From Methylobacterium durans (lineage in GTDB: Bacteria; Pseudomonadota; Alphaproteobacteria; Rhizobiales; Beijerinckiaceae), in NCBI RefSeq assembly GCF_003173715.1, contig NZ_CP029550.1:6650001-6714000 (forward strand): 64,000 bases of DNA, written 5' to 3'. The notes beneath the pieces were generated by a model. That model was not told the DNA's origin. It did not search any database and saw only the letters and a list, made by a program, of their open reading frames with translations. The position numbers and the translations under genes are program-made. Below are positions 11,074 through 14,079 of this stretch, piece after piece. How positions within the stretch are numbered: the first letter of the stretch is position 1; the number at the start of each line of letters is the position of its first letter.

Positions 11074-11268
11074 ATGGCAACTGGAAATTCGACCTCGAAG
11101 CGAGGTTTCGCGTCGATGGATCTCGAGCGGCAGCGCGAGATCGCGAGCAAGGGCGGGCGCAGCGTCCCGGCCGAGAAGCGCTCGTTCTCGCAGGACCGCG
11201 AACTCGCATCGTCCGCCGGCCGCAAGGGCGGTCAGTCGACCGGGACGGGCCGCGGCGGCGCCGAATAA
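11074..11268 (+). CDS. KGG-repeat stress protein
   Basis: A 64-residue, very hydrophilic protein with two KGG motifs in the ASKGGRSVP and AGRKGGQSTG contexts, the pattern of the YciG/GsiB-like KGG domain family. These small disordered proteins are typically induced by general stress or desiccation. GGAGGCGCTG just upstream of the ATG provides a ribosome binding site. The upstream region has GGAAC at 11013-11017 followed after 17 bp by GGTT (11035-11038), one base from the EcfG consensus, so control by the general stress response is possible but weaker than for neighbours. It ends before a strong bidirectional hairpin at 11342-11390. Confidence 0.85.
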   Translation: MATGNSTSKRGFASMDLERQREIASKGGRSVPAEKRSFSQDRELASSAGRKGGQSTGTGRGGAE

Positions 11269-11430: not shown

Positions 11431-11826
11431 TCAGGCGATGCAGCGGCCGGGAACCATGCGGCGCGCCTCGGGCCCGACCAGGGAGCTCAGCGCGCCCTCG
11501 CAGCCTTCGCGCATGCGGCGGGGCCGCACGGGGGCCGGCTCGCCCGCGTCGGTGGACGGAGGCTGCGACAGGGCCGGGGTCGCGTTGGCGGGCCGGGGCG
11601 CGGTCGCGACGCGGATCGGGCTCAGCGCCGTCGAGACGGGCCGCATGCCCGGGAGGGGCGCCTGGGTGGGGACGGCGACCGTGGCCGGTGCCGGAACGGC
11701 GATGGGCTGCGCCTGTGCGGCGATCGATGTCCAGCTATCCGCCGTCTGGCGGACCATCGGATGGACGAGAAGCGTCAGCACGACGGCCGGACCCGCTACG
11801 CCGAGGATGATGCCAGACCGAAGCAT
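11431..11826 (-). CDS. Small membrane-anchored protein, unknown, EcfG promoter
   Basis: A 131-residue protein. The start is the ATG ending at 11826 (MLRSGIILGVAGPAVVL) because GGAG stands 8 bp upstream and because an EcfG promoter at 11867-11892 would place transcription start near 11860, inside any longer TTG-started version. An N-terminal hydrophobic helix of about 20 residues is followed by a Pro/Ala-rich linker of about 75 residues and a distinct basic C-terminus (RPRRMREGCEGALSSLVGPEARRMVPGRCIA) with two Cys. No known family is recognised. Context in the PhyR/NepR island and the promoter suggest a general stress gene with periplasmic or membrane location. Confidence 0.65.
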   Translation of the reverse strand: MLRSGIILGVAGPAVVLTLLVHPMVRQTADSWTSIAAQAQPIAVPAPATVAVPTQAPLPGMRPVSTALSPIRVATAPRPANATPALSQPPSTDAGEPAPVRPRRMREGCEGALSSLVGPEARRMVPGRCIA

Positions 11827-11866
11827 CGTCACGATCTCCGATGGGAGCTTGACAGGATGTCGGGAC

Positions 11867-11892
11867 AACGCGAGTGGCGGGTTACTGGTTCC
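11867..11892 (-). promoter_or_regulatory. EcfG-type (general stress) promoter
   Basis: On the minus strand GGAAC (11892-11888) is followed after 17 bp by CGTT (11870-11867), the consensus of alphaproteobacterial EcfG sigma promoters. It reads toward the gene at 11431-11826, with a predicted 5' leader of about 35 nt. Confidence 0.7.
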
Positions 11893-12024
11893 TTAACTGC
11901 CCAGGTCTAGCTCTGAGTGAGTATTCACCTCTGCCGACGTGGGGCATCGGGGCTGGTCCCCGCTCCTATCCACAGCGAGGCTGTGGCGAGAAAGACGCAG
12001 GATCGGGAAAAAGCGCGCCTTGGC

Positions 12025-12049
12025 GGAACCGCGCAGGCCCCGGCCCGTT
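12025..12049 (+). promoter_or_regulatory. EcfG-type promoter of an intergenic RNA
   Basis: GGAAC (12025-12029), 16 bp, CGTT (12046-12049), an exact match to the EcfG consensus. It reads rightward into a region with no coding gene that ends at a strong plus-strand terminator (12112-12142), so it probably drives a small RNA. Confidence 0.75.
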
Positions 12050-12055
12050 AGCATG

Positions 12056-12142
12056 ACACCCGGCCACCTGGTCCTCCCCGCATTCCCCTTGTGCATTGGC
12101 CGGAACCTTCGAACGGGTCGGATCCCCTCCGGCCCGTTTTTT
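12056..12142 (+). ncRNA. Putative general-stress small RNA (C-rich loop)
   Basis: Predicted transcript of about 87 nt from an EcfG promoter to an intrinsic terminator in the gap between phyR and the protein at 11431; no ORF fits. It should fold as two hairpins. The first has a 7-bp stem, CCGGCCA (12060-12066) with TGGCCGG (12097-12103), enclosing a 30-nt pyrimidine-rich loop with CCTCCCC (12073-12079) and a second CCCC run (12085-12088). The second is the terminator stem. An exposed CCUCC loop can pair with Shine-Dalgarno sequences. The layout resembles the sigma-T-dependent sRNA GsrN of Caulobacter, which has a C-rich 5' hairpin loop. The start is predicted from promoter spacing, and the function is inference. 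Confidence 0.65.
12112..12142 (+). terminator. Intrinsic terminator of the small RNA
   Basis: Stem AACGGGTCGG (12112-12121) with CCGGCCCGTT (12129-12138), one G-U wobble, 7-nt loop, then a run of T to 12142. It is a classical rho-independent terminator on the plus strand, although no protein gene precedes it on that strand. Confidence 0.85.
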
Positions 12143-12224
12143 CTTGGCCGCTTTCCCCGAAGTCGCTCCGGTGCATCACAAGTGGACCGCGGCCCAGCGT
12201 CCGCCGAGAAGATCGCGCAAAACG

Positions 12225-12248
12225 AAAAACCCCGGCTTTCGGCCGGGG
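12225..12248 (-). terminator. Intrinsic terminator of phyR
   Basis: On the minus strand CCCCGGC, 5-nt loop CGAAA, GCCGGGG, then five T (plus-strand A run 12225-12229). It lies 37 bp after the phyR stop. Confidence 0.9.
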
Positions 12249-12284
12249 CTCGTCGGTCTCGTCGTGCTGCCGGCGGGCGCGGCG

Positions 12285-13085
12285 TCAGGCGGTGCGGGCT
12301 TCCCGGCGGCGGGCGCTCTGCTGGAAGAACAGCGCCTGGCTGATCACCGCCGACACGTTGGCCGGCTGGAAGGGCTTGGCGATGAGGAAGGCCGGCTCCG
12401 GCCGCTCGCCGGTGAGGAAGCGTTCCGGGTAGGCGGTGATGAAGATCACCGGCACCTCGAAGGTCTTGAGGAGGTCGTTGACCGCGTCGAGGCCCGAGGA
12501 GCCGTCCGCGAGCTGGATGTCGGCGAGGATCAGCCCCGGCCGCTTGTCGCCGGCGAGCTTGATCGCCTCCGTGCGGGTGCGGGCGACGCCGATCACGTTG
12601 TGGCCGAGACCCTCGACCAGGGCCTCGAGATCCATGGCGATCAGGGGCTCGTCCTCGATGATCAGGATCTCGGTGGCCATGTCAGCGGCGAGTTCGCGGC
12701 CCGCCTCGTCCACGAGGTCGCGCACCTCCGAGACGTCGACGTCGAGGATGATGGCGGCATCCTCCTCGGAGAAGCCTTCGAGGCAGGAGAGCAGGAAGGC
12801 TTGGCGGGGCAGAGGTGTGATCTGTCCGAGACGGACTTCGGCGGGCAGGTCGTGCTGCACCTGCTCGCTCTGGCCGTTCACAGAGAGCGAGTTCCAGATC
12901 CGGGTGAACACGCGGAACAGGTCGGCCTTGACGTTGGCGCTCCGGCCGAGCGTCTCGGGCTCGTTCACCAGCGTCTCGAGCGTGGCCGCCACGTAGGCGT
13001 CGCCGGCGACTTGGCTGCCCGTCAGCGCGCGCGCATAGCGGCGCAGATAGGGCAGGTGCTGCACGACGAGTTGAGATGTCGACAT
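12285..13085 (-). CDS. phyR: PhyR, general stress response regulator
   Basis: A 266-residue protein with the inverted PhyR architecture: a sigma-factor-like domain first (about residues 1-130, LVVQHLPYLRRYARALTGSQ, then PLPRQAFLLSCLEGFSEEDAAIILDV resembling sigma region 4), then a receiver domain (138-258). The phosphoacceptor is Asp189 in LILADIQLADG, and TAYPERF and the switch Lys in IAKPFQP are present. In the family, phosphorylated PhyR binds the anti-sigma factor NepR and so frees the EcfG sigma factor. The start at MSTSQLVV is chosen by family length (267 in M. extorquens). Divergent nepR lies 180 bp away; both have EcfG promoters, so the switch is autoregulated. No PhyK kinase or ecfG gene is in the window. 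Confidence 0.97.
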   Translation of the reverse strand: MSTSQLVVQHLPYLRRYARALTGSQVAGDAYVAATLETLVNEPETLGRSANVKADLFRVFTRIWNSLSVNGQSEQVQHDLPAEVRLGQITPLPRQAFLLSCLEGFSEEDAAIILDVDVSEVRDLVDEAGRELAADMATEILIIEDEPLIAMDLEALVEGLGHNVIGVARTRTEAIKLAGDKRPGLILADIQLADGSSGLDAVNDLLKTFEVPVIFITAYPERFLTGERPEPAFLIAKPFQPANVSAVISQALFFQQSARRREARTA

Positions 13086-13128
13086 TAGATCCCCTGGGCC
13101 TTGCCGTTCTTCTGGTAGCCTCCGCCCC

Positions 13129-13153
13129 AACGCGGATGGTCCGACTCCGTTCC
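13129..13153 (-). promoter_or_regulatory. EcfG-type promoter of phyR
   Basis: Minus-strand GGAAC (13153-13149), 16-bp spacer, CGTT (13132-13129), directed at phyR with a predicted leader of about 37 nt. It is exactly the consensus. Confidence 0.8.
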
Positions 13154-13161
13154 GGCAACGC

Positions 13162-13186
13162 GGAACCGATTGTATGCCACGGCGTT
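13162..13186 (+). promoter_or_regulatory. EcfG-type promoter of nepR
   Basis: GGAAC (13162-13166), 16-bp spacer, CGTT (13183-13186), directed at nepR. The two divergent -35 elements (13149-13153 and 13162-13166) are only 8 bp apart, so the two promoters stand back to back. Confidence 0.8.
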
Positions 13187-13265
13187 GCAGCTGCAGCCAT
13201 GACGTATGTCAAGCCGCAAAACAATCGCGGCGGCGCCCCCATGCGGCGCCAAGGGGACCTTGTGG

Positions 13266-13523
13266 ATGATCGATGATGGTGGTGCCGAGGACGGTCCGGG
13301 ACGGGGCCGAATGGACGATGCGCGCCGCGTGGGCGCGCCGTCCTCCGGAGCCCGATGCGCGGCCGATCCGCGCCAGGACCGCGCGGGTCTGAACGAGCAG
13401 ACGCAGCGGCGGATCGGAAATCACCTGCGCAGCATGTACGACGCGGTTCTCCAGCAGCCGGTCCCTGACCGTTTCCGCGACCTGATCGCGCGGCTCGACG
13501 CCTCCGAGCCGGATCAGGCCTGA
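13266..13523 (+). CDS. nepR: NepR, anti-sigma factor of the general stress response
   Basis: An 85-residue protein (from MIDDGGAEDG) whose C-terminal half holds the NepR core: LNEQTQRRIGNHLRSMYDAVLQQPVPDRFRDLI, two helices that bind either EcfG sigma or the sigma-like domain of PhyR. The N-terminal part is Gly/Arg/Asp-rich and disordered, as in the family. AAGGGGAC upstream of 13266 supports this start; ATG 13206 and ATG 13311 are alternatives. It is divergent from phyR and preceded by a perfect EcfG promoter. The sigma factor gene often found next to nepR is not here; downstream is a convergent DUF1328 gene beyond a terminator. Confidence 0.9.
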   Translation: MIDDGGAEDGPGRGRMDDARRVGAPSSGARCAADPRQDRAGLNEQTQRRIGNHLRSMYDAVLQQPVPDRFRDLIARLDASEPDQA

Positions 13524-13586
13524 GCGGGTTCGCGTAGCGGTGCACGGGGCGGCCCGTCGAGCGTCGAGCCGATCTGATATGAACGA

Positions 13587-13618
13587 AGGCCGCCCCTGTC
13601 CGATCGGCGGGGCGGCCT
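13587..13618. terminator. Hairpin terminator between nepR and DUF1328
   Basis: AGGCCGCCCC (13587-13596) pairs perfectly with GGGGCGGCCT (13609-13618) over a 12-nt loop. No long T run follows on either side, so termination may be only partial. It lies between convergent genes. Confidence 0.65.
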
Positions 13619-13649
13619 GTTCAGGCAACGGCCGGGCGGCCGTGCCGCC

Positions 13650-13826
13650 TCAGAGTGTGGGTGAACGGCCCCGCATCAGGCCGATCACGGCCGAGATCGC
13701 GAACAGGACGATCGCCACGAAGAAGACGAGCTTGGCGGCTTCCATCGCGGTGCCGGCGATGCCGCCGAAGCCGAGGAGCGCGGCCACGAGGGCCACGACA
13801 AGAAACGTAACGGCCCATCCGAGCAT
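13650..13826 (-). CDS. DUF1328 small membrane protein
   Basis: A 58-residue protein, [22 protein letters not shown]..., of the DUF1328 (YtjA-like) family: two hydrophobic helices, the first ending GFGGIAGTA and the second [17 protein letters not shown], then RGRSPTL. Family members are tiny inner-membrane proteins that are frequently part of general stress regulons; their mechanism is unknown. The start is the ATG ending at 13826, because the family begins ML-x-W-A and an EcfG promoter at 13883-13907 predicts a leader of about 50 nt, which excludes the longer ORF version. Confidence 0.9.
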
Positions 13827-13882
13827 TTGCGTGTTCCTTCTCGATCGTGGTGCGGGCTGAGCCGTCACCTTCTGAAGGCAAT

Positions 13883-13907
13883 AACGTCAAGGTTTCGGAA
13901 CAGTTCC
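13883..13907 (-). promoter_or_regulatory. EcfG-type promoter of the DUF1328 gene
   Basis: Minus-strand GGAAC (13907-13903), 16-bp spacer, CGTT (13886-13883), an exact consensus match directed at the DUF1328 gene. Confidence 0.75.
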
Positions 13908-14053
13908 TCGGGGGCCGATCAGGTGACGGGAGGGCCGAGGTCTTCGCTGCGCGCGGATCCGATCTCCCTGCGGCGCATCGCCCGCCTCCCTCGCACGGCG
14001 CCGTTCGAGCCCCCATCTTCCGCATCGAACCGCACCGCGCGGTGGGCCGGCCC

Positions 14054-14079
14054 GGAACAGGGTCGGGCGGCACCGCGTT
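14054..14079 (+). promoter_or_regulatory. EcfG-type promoter before a small ORF
   Basis: GGAAC (14054-14058), 17-bp spacer, CGTT (14076-14079), reading toward the 51-codon ORF at 14154. The 70 bp between promoter and ORF carry several imperfect copies of CCGTGAGCC. Confidence 0.6.

Follow-up and report, generated by a model that had tools for sequence, protein, structure and literature searches.

Methylobacterium extorquens is the organism in which the general stress response (GSR) and its regulator PhyR were originally elucidated. In the underlying partner switch, stress leads to the phosphorylation of PhyR, upon which NepR is drawn off EcfG.

The closest described RNA is GsrN of Caulobacter crescentus, a sigma-T-dependent small RNA (sRNA) that activates katG through a C-rich 5′ loop, according to the portions of its description used here (PMC5869019). 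In those portions GsrN matches are limited to Caulobacteraceae, GsrN-like RNAs are predicted near switch genes in Rhizobium etli, Sinorhizobium meliloti, Brucella abortus, Rhodopseudomonas palustris and Bradyrhizobium diazoefficiens, and nepR mRNA is reported to have come down with GsrN, with feedback on GSR transcription sought and not found; Methylobacterium and Rhizobiales are not mentioned there (PMC5869019). The EcfG-type sigma factor RpoE2 of S. meliloti is reported to activate seven sRNAs, whose impact is called unknown in the excerpted text (PMC6180224). A further stress-linked alphaproteobacterial RNA type, represented by SmelA075/SmelA099 and RS0680a, carries anti-Shine-Dalgarno loops on its two to four hairpins; the part of the source cited gives CCUCCUCCC as the motif of these loops in SmelA075/099 (PMC3927594). 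Among open-access titles and the beginnings of abstracts, we found no description of an RNA in the Methylobacterium phyR switch; one paper states, in its excerpted part, that sRNA transcripts were not examined (PMC6520949).

The RNA gene described here lies beside phyR in the window, by which we mean the whole 64-kb stretch of DNA that was analysed. Like GsrN, as portrayed in the cited portions of PMC5869019, it has an EcfG-type promoter, an exposed C-rich 5′ loop, a location near phyR/nepR/ecfG (phyR in 106 of 110 loci) and G-rich mRNA sites that the loop could meet, and it differs in that the best matched sites belong to phyR and nepR, whereas the effect described for GsrN is activation of katG. 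Its EcfG-type promoter directly upstream of a non-coding, structured and terminated unit is what is expected of a general-stress sRNA, and the putative EcfG-type control also sets it alongside the RpoE2-dependent sRNAs of S. meliloti, by description and not by sequence (PMC6180224, in part). It resembles SmelA075/SmelA099 and RS0680a as a candidate stress-linked RNA with anti-Shine-Dalgarno loops (PMC3927594, in part); unlike SmelA075/RS0680a, which are recognized by two or more such hairpins, it combines a terminator with a single 5′ stem-loop that contains UCCUCCCC and UUCCCC, and all 110 loci hold the CCUCCCC-type loop within that one stem-loop. We liken the window RNA to GsrN by its features and not by homology. 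The sequence-only reading, an earlier account of this DNA, had given it the same plan as GsrN, which holds for the kind of promoter, the C-rich loop and the proximity to switch genes.

Results

An sRNA gene with an EcfG-type promoter 3′ of phyR

The predicted sRNA gene occupies 12056–12143 on the plus strand (a transcript of about 88 nt, its start placed by promoter spacing), sits 3′ of phyR and is oriented toward it. Directly upstream, at 12025–12049 (+), is an exact match to the EcfG-type promoter GGAAC-N16-CGTT, just as the sequence-only reading had claimed, and the gene is closed by an intrinsic terminator identified by a terminator scan (12111–12142, +), in which a terminator-like hairpin (12111–12139) followed by a T tract agrees with the U-tract terminator proposed earlier. 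phyR, a candidate target (12285–13085, −; PhyR_sigma2, PhyR_sigma-like and Response_reg domains), is convergent with the RNA gene and has a terminator-like site at 12251–12227 (−), which together with the RNA terminator separates the two genes; nepR (13266–13523, +; PF18557 NepR, E 4.7e-17) is divergent from phyR. At gathering score the 4227 families of Rfam 15 had no match in the window, and a lax Rfam search of 11850–12300 returned only three, with E values of 2–4.8.

GGAAC-N15-18-CGTT occurs seven times in the 64-kb window against 1.26 expected, and at least seven occurrences were seen in none of 100 shuffles. Terminator-like sites number four in 6 kb against 2.5 expected from shuffles, so the terminator pattern alone is weak.

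Six of the seven promoter-type sites in the window fall within 2.2 kb (11867–14079). By position, these would serve a 131-aa ORF (11431–11826, −), which has no Pfam match, the small RNA, phyR and nepR, and further a DUF1328 gene (13650–13829, −) and something to the right of 14079. Upstream of the small RNA locus lies a small ORF (11074–11268) with two KGG stress-motif stretches (PF10685).

Conservation across the genus

BLASTN with 12000–12180 found matches in 110 of 111 Methylobacterium genomes and none in the remaining one (G073), with one full RNA copy per genome where found, and all 110 matching loci were taken into the conservation analysis. phyR lies downstream and convergent in 106 of them, the two gene ends being 50–617 nt apart in the loci measured; at the other four (L039, L041, L058 and L064) no phyR falls within the approximately 3-kb stretch examined. 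Over the 110 loci, mean pairwise identity upstream of the promoter is 0.32. The −35 and −10 boxes reach 0.99 and 0.97, against 0.37 for the spacer and 0.31 for the 7 nt that follow (the discriminator). Within the RNA, the 5′ and 3′ stem arms have values of 0.95 and 0.92, the loop 0.96, hairpin B (defined below) 0.98, the linker 0.74 and the terminator 0.77; beyond it, identity is 0.35. This profile is that of a promoter plus an RNA, and we take the gene to be confirmed because the promoter boxes and the RNA core are conserved whereas the intervening and flanking sequence is not, which is the decisive point.

GGAAC-N16/N17-CGTT stands upstream of the RNA in 103 of the 110, with the first aligned RNA base 7 nt further on in every one of these, and the second box of the other seven reads GGTT (five loci) or TGTT (two loci); the published M. 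extorquens consensus permits C/GGTT, according to the excerpted part of PMC4814048. Judged from these sequences, control of the small RNA by EcfG is very likely.

The absence of an ORF, claimed earlier for the window, extends to the genus: no reading frame is conserved, 73 of the 110 loci contain no ORF that is closed within the RNA plus 20 nt, the longest one elsewhere is 24 aa and lacks conservation, and an ATG precedes the terminator in just one locus. The C-run of the loop has four C in 85 loci, five in 16 and six in 7, and reads CAACC in 2. We regard it as practically certain that the segment is a real, strongly conserved sRNA gene with its own stress-type promoter. The sequence-only reading had named, as grounds for abandoning it, relatives that lose promoter, loop and terminator or a conserved protein encoded here, and the comparison of relatives provided neither.

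RNA structure

The fold of 12056–12145 has an energy of −36.8 kcal/mol (z −4.0), equalled by none of 200 shuffles. Its 5′ stem-loop (12060–12103, +) pairs CCGGCCA (12060–12066) with TGGCCGG (12097–12103) around a C-rich loop of 30 nt with CCUCCCC and CCCC, which is the 7-bp stem already seen in the earlier reading. What had been described as a single loop is here refined into two predicted mini-hairpins: hairpin A, GG-UCCUCC-CC, with an anti-Shine-Dalgarno-like loop (12070–12079, +), and hairpin B, GCAU-UCCCCUU-GUGC, whose loop is the complement of AAGGGGA (12080–12094, +).

In an alignment of 25 sequences from four genera, 33 cells were changed on both sides of a pair, against 7.8 in shuffles, and none of 500 shuffles reached that figure; the number of pair types, as another measure of covariation, was not above shuffles (286 of 500 reached it). 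One outer-stem pair changes from C-G to U-A in three sequences of the Salinarimonas genus (g20), and six of the nine terminator stem pairs are changed on both sides in the same 25 sequences. Hairpin A is predicted in the window RNA and several relatives and is not predicted in L173 or L181, where the hairpin B fold is also absent from the predictions. The two pairs of hairpin A are invariant in the 25 sequences and therefore speak neither for nor against pairing, and the four pairs of hairpin B are unpaired in 2–4 of the 25 without compensation, because of which the letters of the loop are better supported than its inner fold.

Relatives outside Methylobacterium

A covariance model (R1), built from 93 distinct sequences and run over 298 genomes of the family, gave strong matches (E < 1e-10) solely in genera g1, g20, g32 and g36, the last three being the sister genera Salinarimonas, Microvirga and the YIM 77505 genus. 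phyR adjoins the RNA in all 18 sister-genus loci checked, out of 28 strong matches, and in all four of a set of weak matches from genus g41. An exact 23-mer of the RNA core was found in 105 stretches of a named genome collection, carried by Methylobacterium, Methylorubrum, Microvirga, Salinarimonas, bacterium YIM 77505 and some MAGs. Genus g34, a near one by PhyR identity (77–78%), carries a different gene 3′ of phyR and lacks the RNA there; at the place of the RNA, L225 and L226 have a coding gene next to phyR that looks SufE-like.

Over the order (297 genomes), R1 gave weak matches only (E 1.7e-4 and weaker), and none of the 24 that were fetched (L141–L164) has phyR in its stretch, so that we do not count them as relatives. 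Over the class (190 genomes), it gave no credible relative beyond the window's own genome, and four matches were set aside, as they match by terminator-like hairpins and have no adjoining EcfG promoter. To judge from these sequences, credible relatives appear only in the Methylobacterium–Microvirga–Salinarimonas clade.

The surroundings of phyR (about ±7 kb) in 40 other genomes did not yield the same RNA. Different C-rich candidates, with an EcfG promoter, a terminator and a C-rich loop near phyR, are carried by L465 and L466 (genus g10), L439 (family f29) and L454 (family f2). The two g10 candidates both match the phyR ribosome-binding site over 7 nt, and those of L439 and L454 over just 5 nt. 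Other heuristic matches (L447, two in L449, L458, a second in L465, and L469) look long or protein-coding and were set aside.

Complementarity to the ribosome-binding sites of phyR and nepR

The UCCCCUU of hairpin B is the reverse complement of AAGGGGA, and the C-rich loops as a whole are, by computation, complementary to Shine-Dalgarno-type sites, as had been anticipated from the window. In the window AGGGGA lies in the phyR ribosome-binding site (13090–13095, −), and CCAAGGGGACC forms that of nepR, the other candidate target (13249–13259, +). The phyR ribosome-binding site has AGGGGA in 103 of 106 Methylobacterium loci, the exceptions being L018, L103 and L104, which retain the loop, and in all 18 loci of the three sister genera g20, g32 and g36. 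It is absent before phyR in all four g41 loci, where the loop is rewritten and reads CCGCUUUGCCCCC, and in both g34 loci, which have no RNA beside phyR and in which the site reads AAGGAT or AAGGATG. Among outside phyR loci it was found in 2 of 46, a set that includes the two g34 loci and leaves out 12 Methylobacteriaceae of the 58 fetched by protein search.

Within this genome, AGGGGA stands before 7 of 655 sampled gene starts, phyR being one, and AAGGGGA before none; these starts come from a home-made gene finder run on 864 kb of 6.79 Mb and are therefore approximate, with genes under about 100 aa missed, and nepR is not among them. At least six contiguous nt complementary to hairpin B occur in 104 of 106 phyR leaders versus 30 of the 655 genes (and 6 of the 46 outside loci), and at least seven in 63 of 106 versus 7 of 655. 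Shuffled loops matched the phyR leaders as often in 7 of 1000 cases, a figure to be read knowing that hairpin B was chosen after the match had been seen. By duplex energy phyR ranks 128th of 655 for loop B and 194th for the whole loop, and so is not singled out. The nepR site CCAAGGGGACC takes fourth place among 656 with loop B, and its rank is 29th when the whole loop is used and 52nd with loop A.

AGGGG precedes the assigned nepR start in 80 of 97 Methylobacterium matches, the other 17 having another motif or no assigned start, and in 15 of 21 of the sister-genus set; the nepR genes of the Salinarimonas-genus and g41 loci are without an AAGGGGA-type site. The genome has 40 occurrences of AAGGGGA-N3-9-ATG and 12 of the backwards pattern, and the 40 include nepR and one NepR-like ORF. 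The latter (L367 502–714, G000:2931501–2931713) encodes 70 aa, and matches PF18557 below the Pfam cut-off (E 0.00013). Its start is preceded by CAAGGGGA, and upstream of the ORF no strict EcfG promoter was seen.

How far such constancy can be taken is limited by control genes. In rpsA the AGGAG is retained by 26 of 30 genomes and, after correction of their starts, by the remaining four; nuoD varies, with the commonest Shine-Dalgarno-like hexamer in 8 of the 21 starts found among 30. Because rpsA keeps its AGGAG, a constant site needs no RNA, which rules out the constancy of the phyR site as proof on its own. Independent events are few, loop and site having been lost about twice.

Two other kinds of target were considered and rejected. 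For EcfG genes, 14 of 16 NepR-domain places in the genome were read, and in none of EcfG type does AAGGGGA precede a candidate start; one of the places (L370) has CAGGGGA 11 nt upstream. Of several EcfG-type ORFs with a NepR-like N-terminus, two (L363 and L364; G000:2059941 and 1212848) seem, by eye from their translations, to be disrupted beyond the start. Long near-complements of the loop occur at 8 sites for each of two patterns, the gene itself included, which is at chance level because the backwards controls gave 2 and 5.

Discussion

We propose, as the leading mechanism and as close to an even call, that the small RNA is a general-stress RNA that gives feedback by pairing onto phyR and nepR. 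EcfG, once released from NepR, would transcribe the small RNA from the promoter at 12025–12049, and the RNA of about 88 nt, ended by its intrinsic terminator, would accumulate with two nearly invariant C-rich stretches exposed by the 5′ stem-loop. Its UCCCCUU could then pair with the ribosome-binding sites CAGGGGA of phyR and AAGGGGA of nepR, and probably with further mRNAs. Such pairing may lower translation of phyR and nepR, in which case the switch would limit or reset itself after activation.

The main rival is that the RNA is purely an output, driven by EcfG and using its C-rich loops to pair with G-rich sites in many effector mRNAs downstream of the switch, its match to phyR and nepR being a coincidence or of no consequence for the switch. 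This is how GsrN behaves in the cited portions of its description, activating katG via the C-rich loop with no effect on GSR transcription (PMC5869019), and it accords with the 193 of 655 genes that outrank phyR in duplex energy with the loop and with the excess of AAGGGGA-N3-9-ATG in the genome (40 versus 12 backwards). It leaves unexplained, however, why a rare site type is common to phyR and nepR, present with the loop and missing without it, and we hold an output-only role to be possible, if rather doubtful. The earlier suggestion of a post-transcriptional arm inside the switch is specifically strengthened by the loop's complementarity to both ribosome-binding sites, and we see the sequence-only interpretation as a whole as partly supported.

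That the RNA acts otherwise, as an antisense to the phyR 3′ end by read-through, as a sponge for another RNA or by binding a protein, draws on its convergence with phyR at gene ends 50–617 nt apart. In the window, however, the two genes are each provided with a terminator-like site, the distance to phyR varies widely, and conservation lies in the loop and not in a region shared with phyR, so we consider this improbable. Promoter- and terminator-like patterns do arise by chance in GC-rich DNA, and a small protein might be missed; yet chance patterns fit poorly with the conservation profile, the constant promoter spacing and the covariation, and a protein with the lack of a conserved frame and with length changes of 1–2 nt inside the conserved core, which together make the absence of an RNA gene very improbable.

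Feedback pairing onto phyR and nepR may also be stated for the clade: its switch would have an RNA arm, an EcfG-made RNA whose pairing partners are the phyR and nepR ribosome-binding sites, loop and sites having been kept together across Methylobacterium, Microvirga and Salinarimonas, with an analogous pair of RNA and site separately arisen in a further genus of the family, that of L465 and L466. We consider this wider proposal plausible, on the doubtful side of even. An EcfG-driven RNA with a C-rich loop is a known kind, and the family and its proposed targets are new as far as our literature searches go. Deletion and loop-swap tests would be simple, since the RNA is short, present in one full copy per genome and next to phyR. 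Should the RNA indeed pair with these sites of phyR and nepR, the set point of the switch would in part be decided post-transcriptionally, which bears on how the stress response is limited and shut off. It would then be an RNA feedback onto the partner switch, of the sort that was sought and not found for GsrN.
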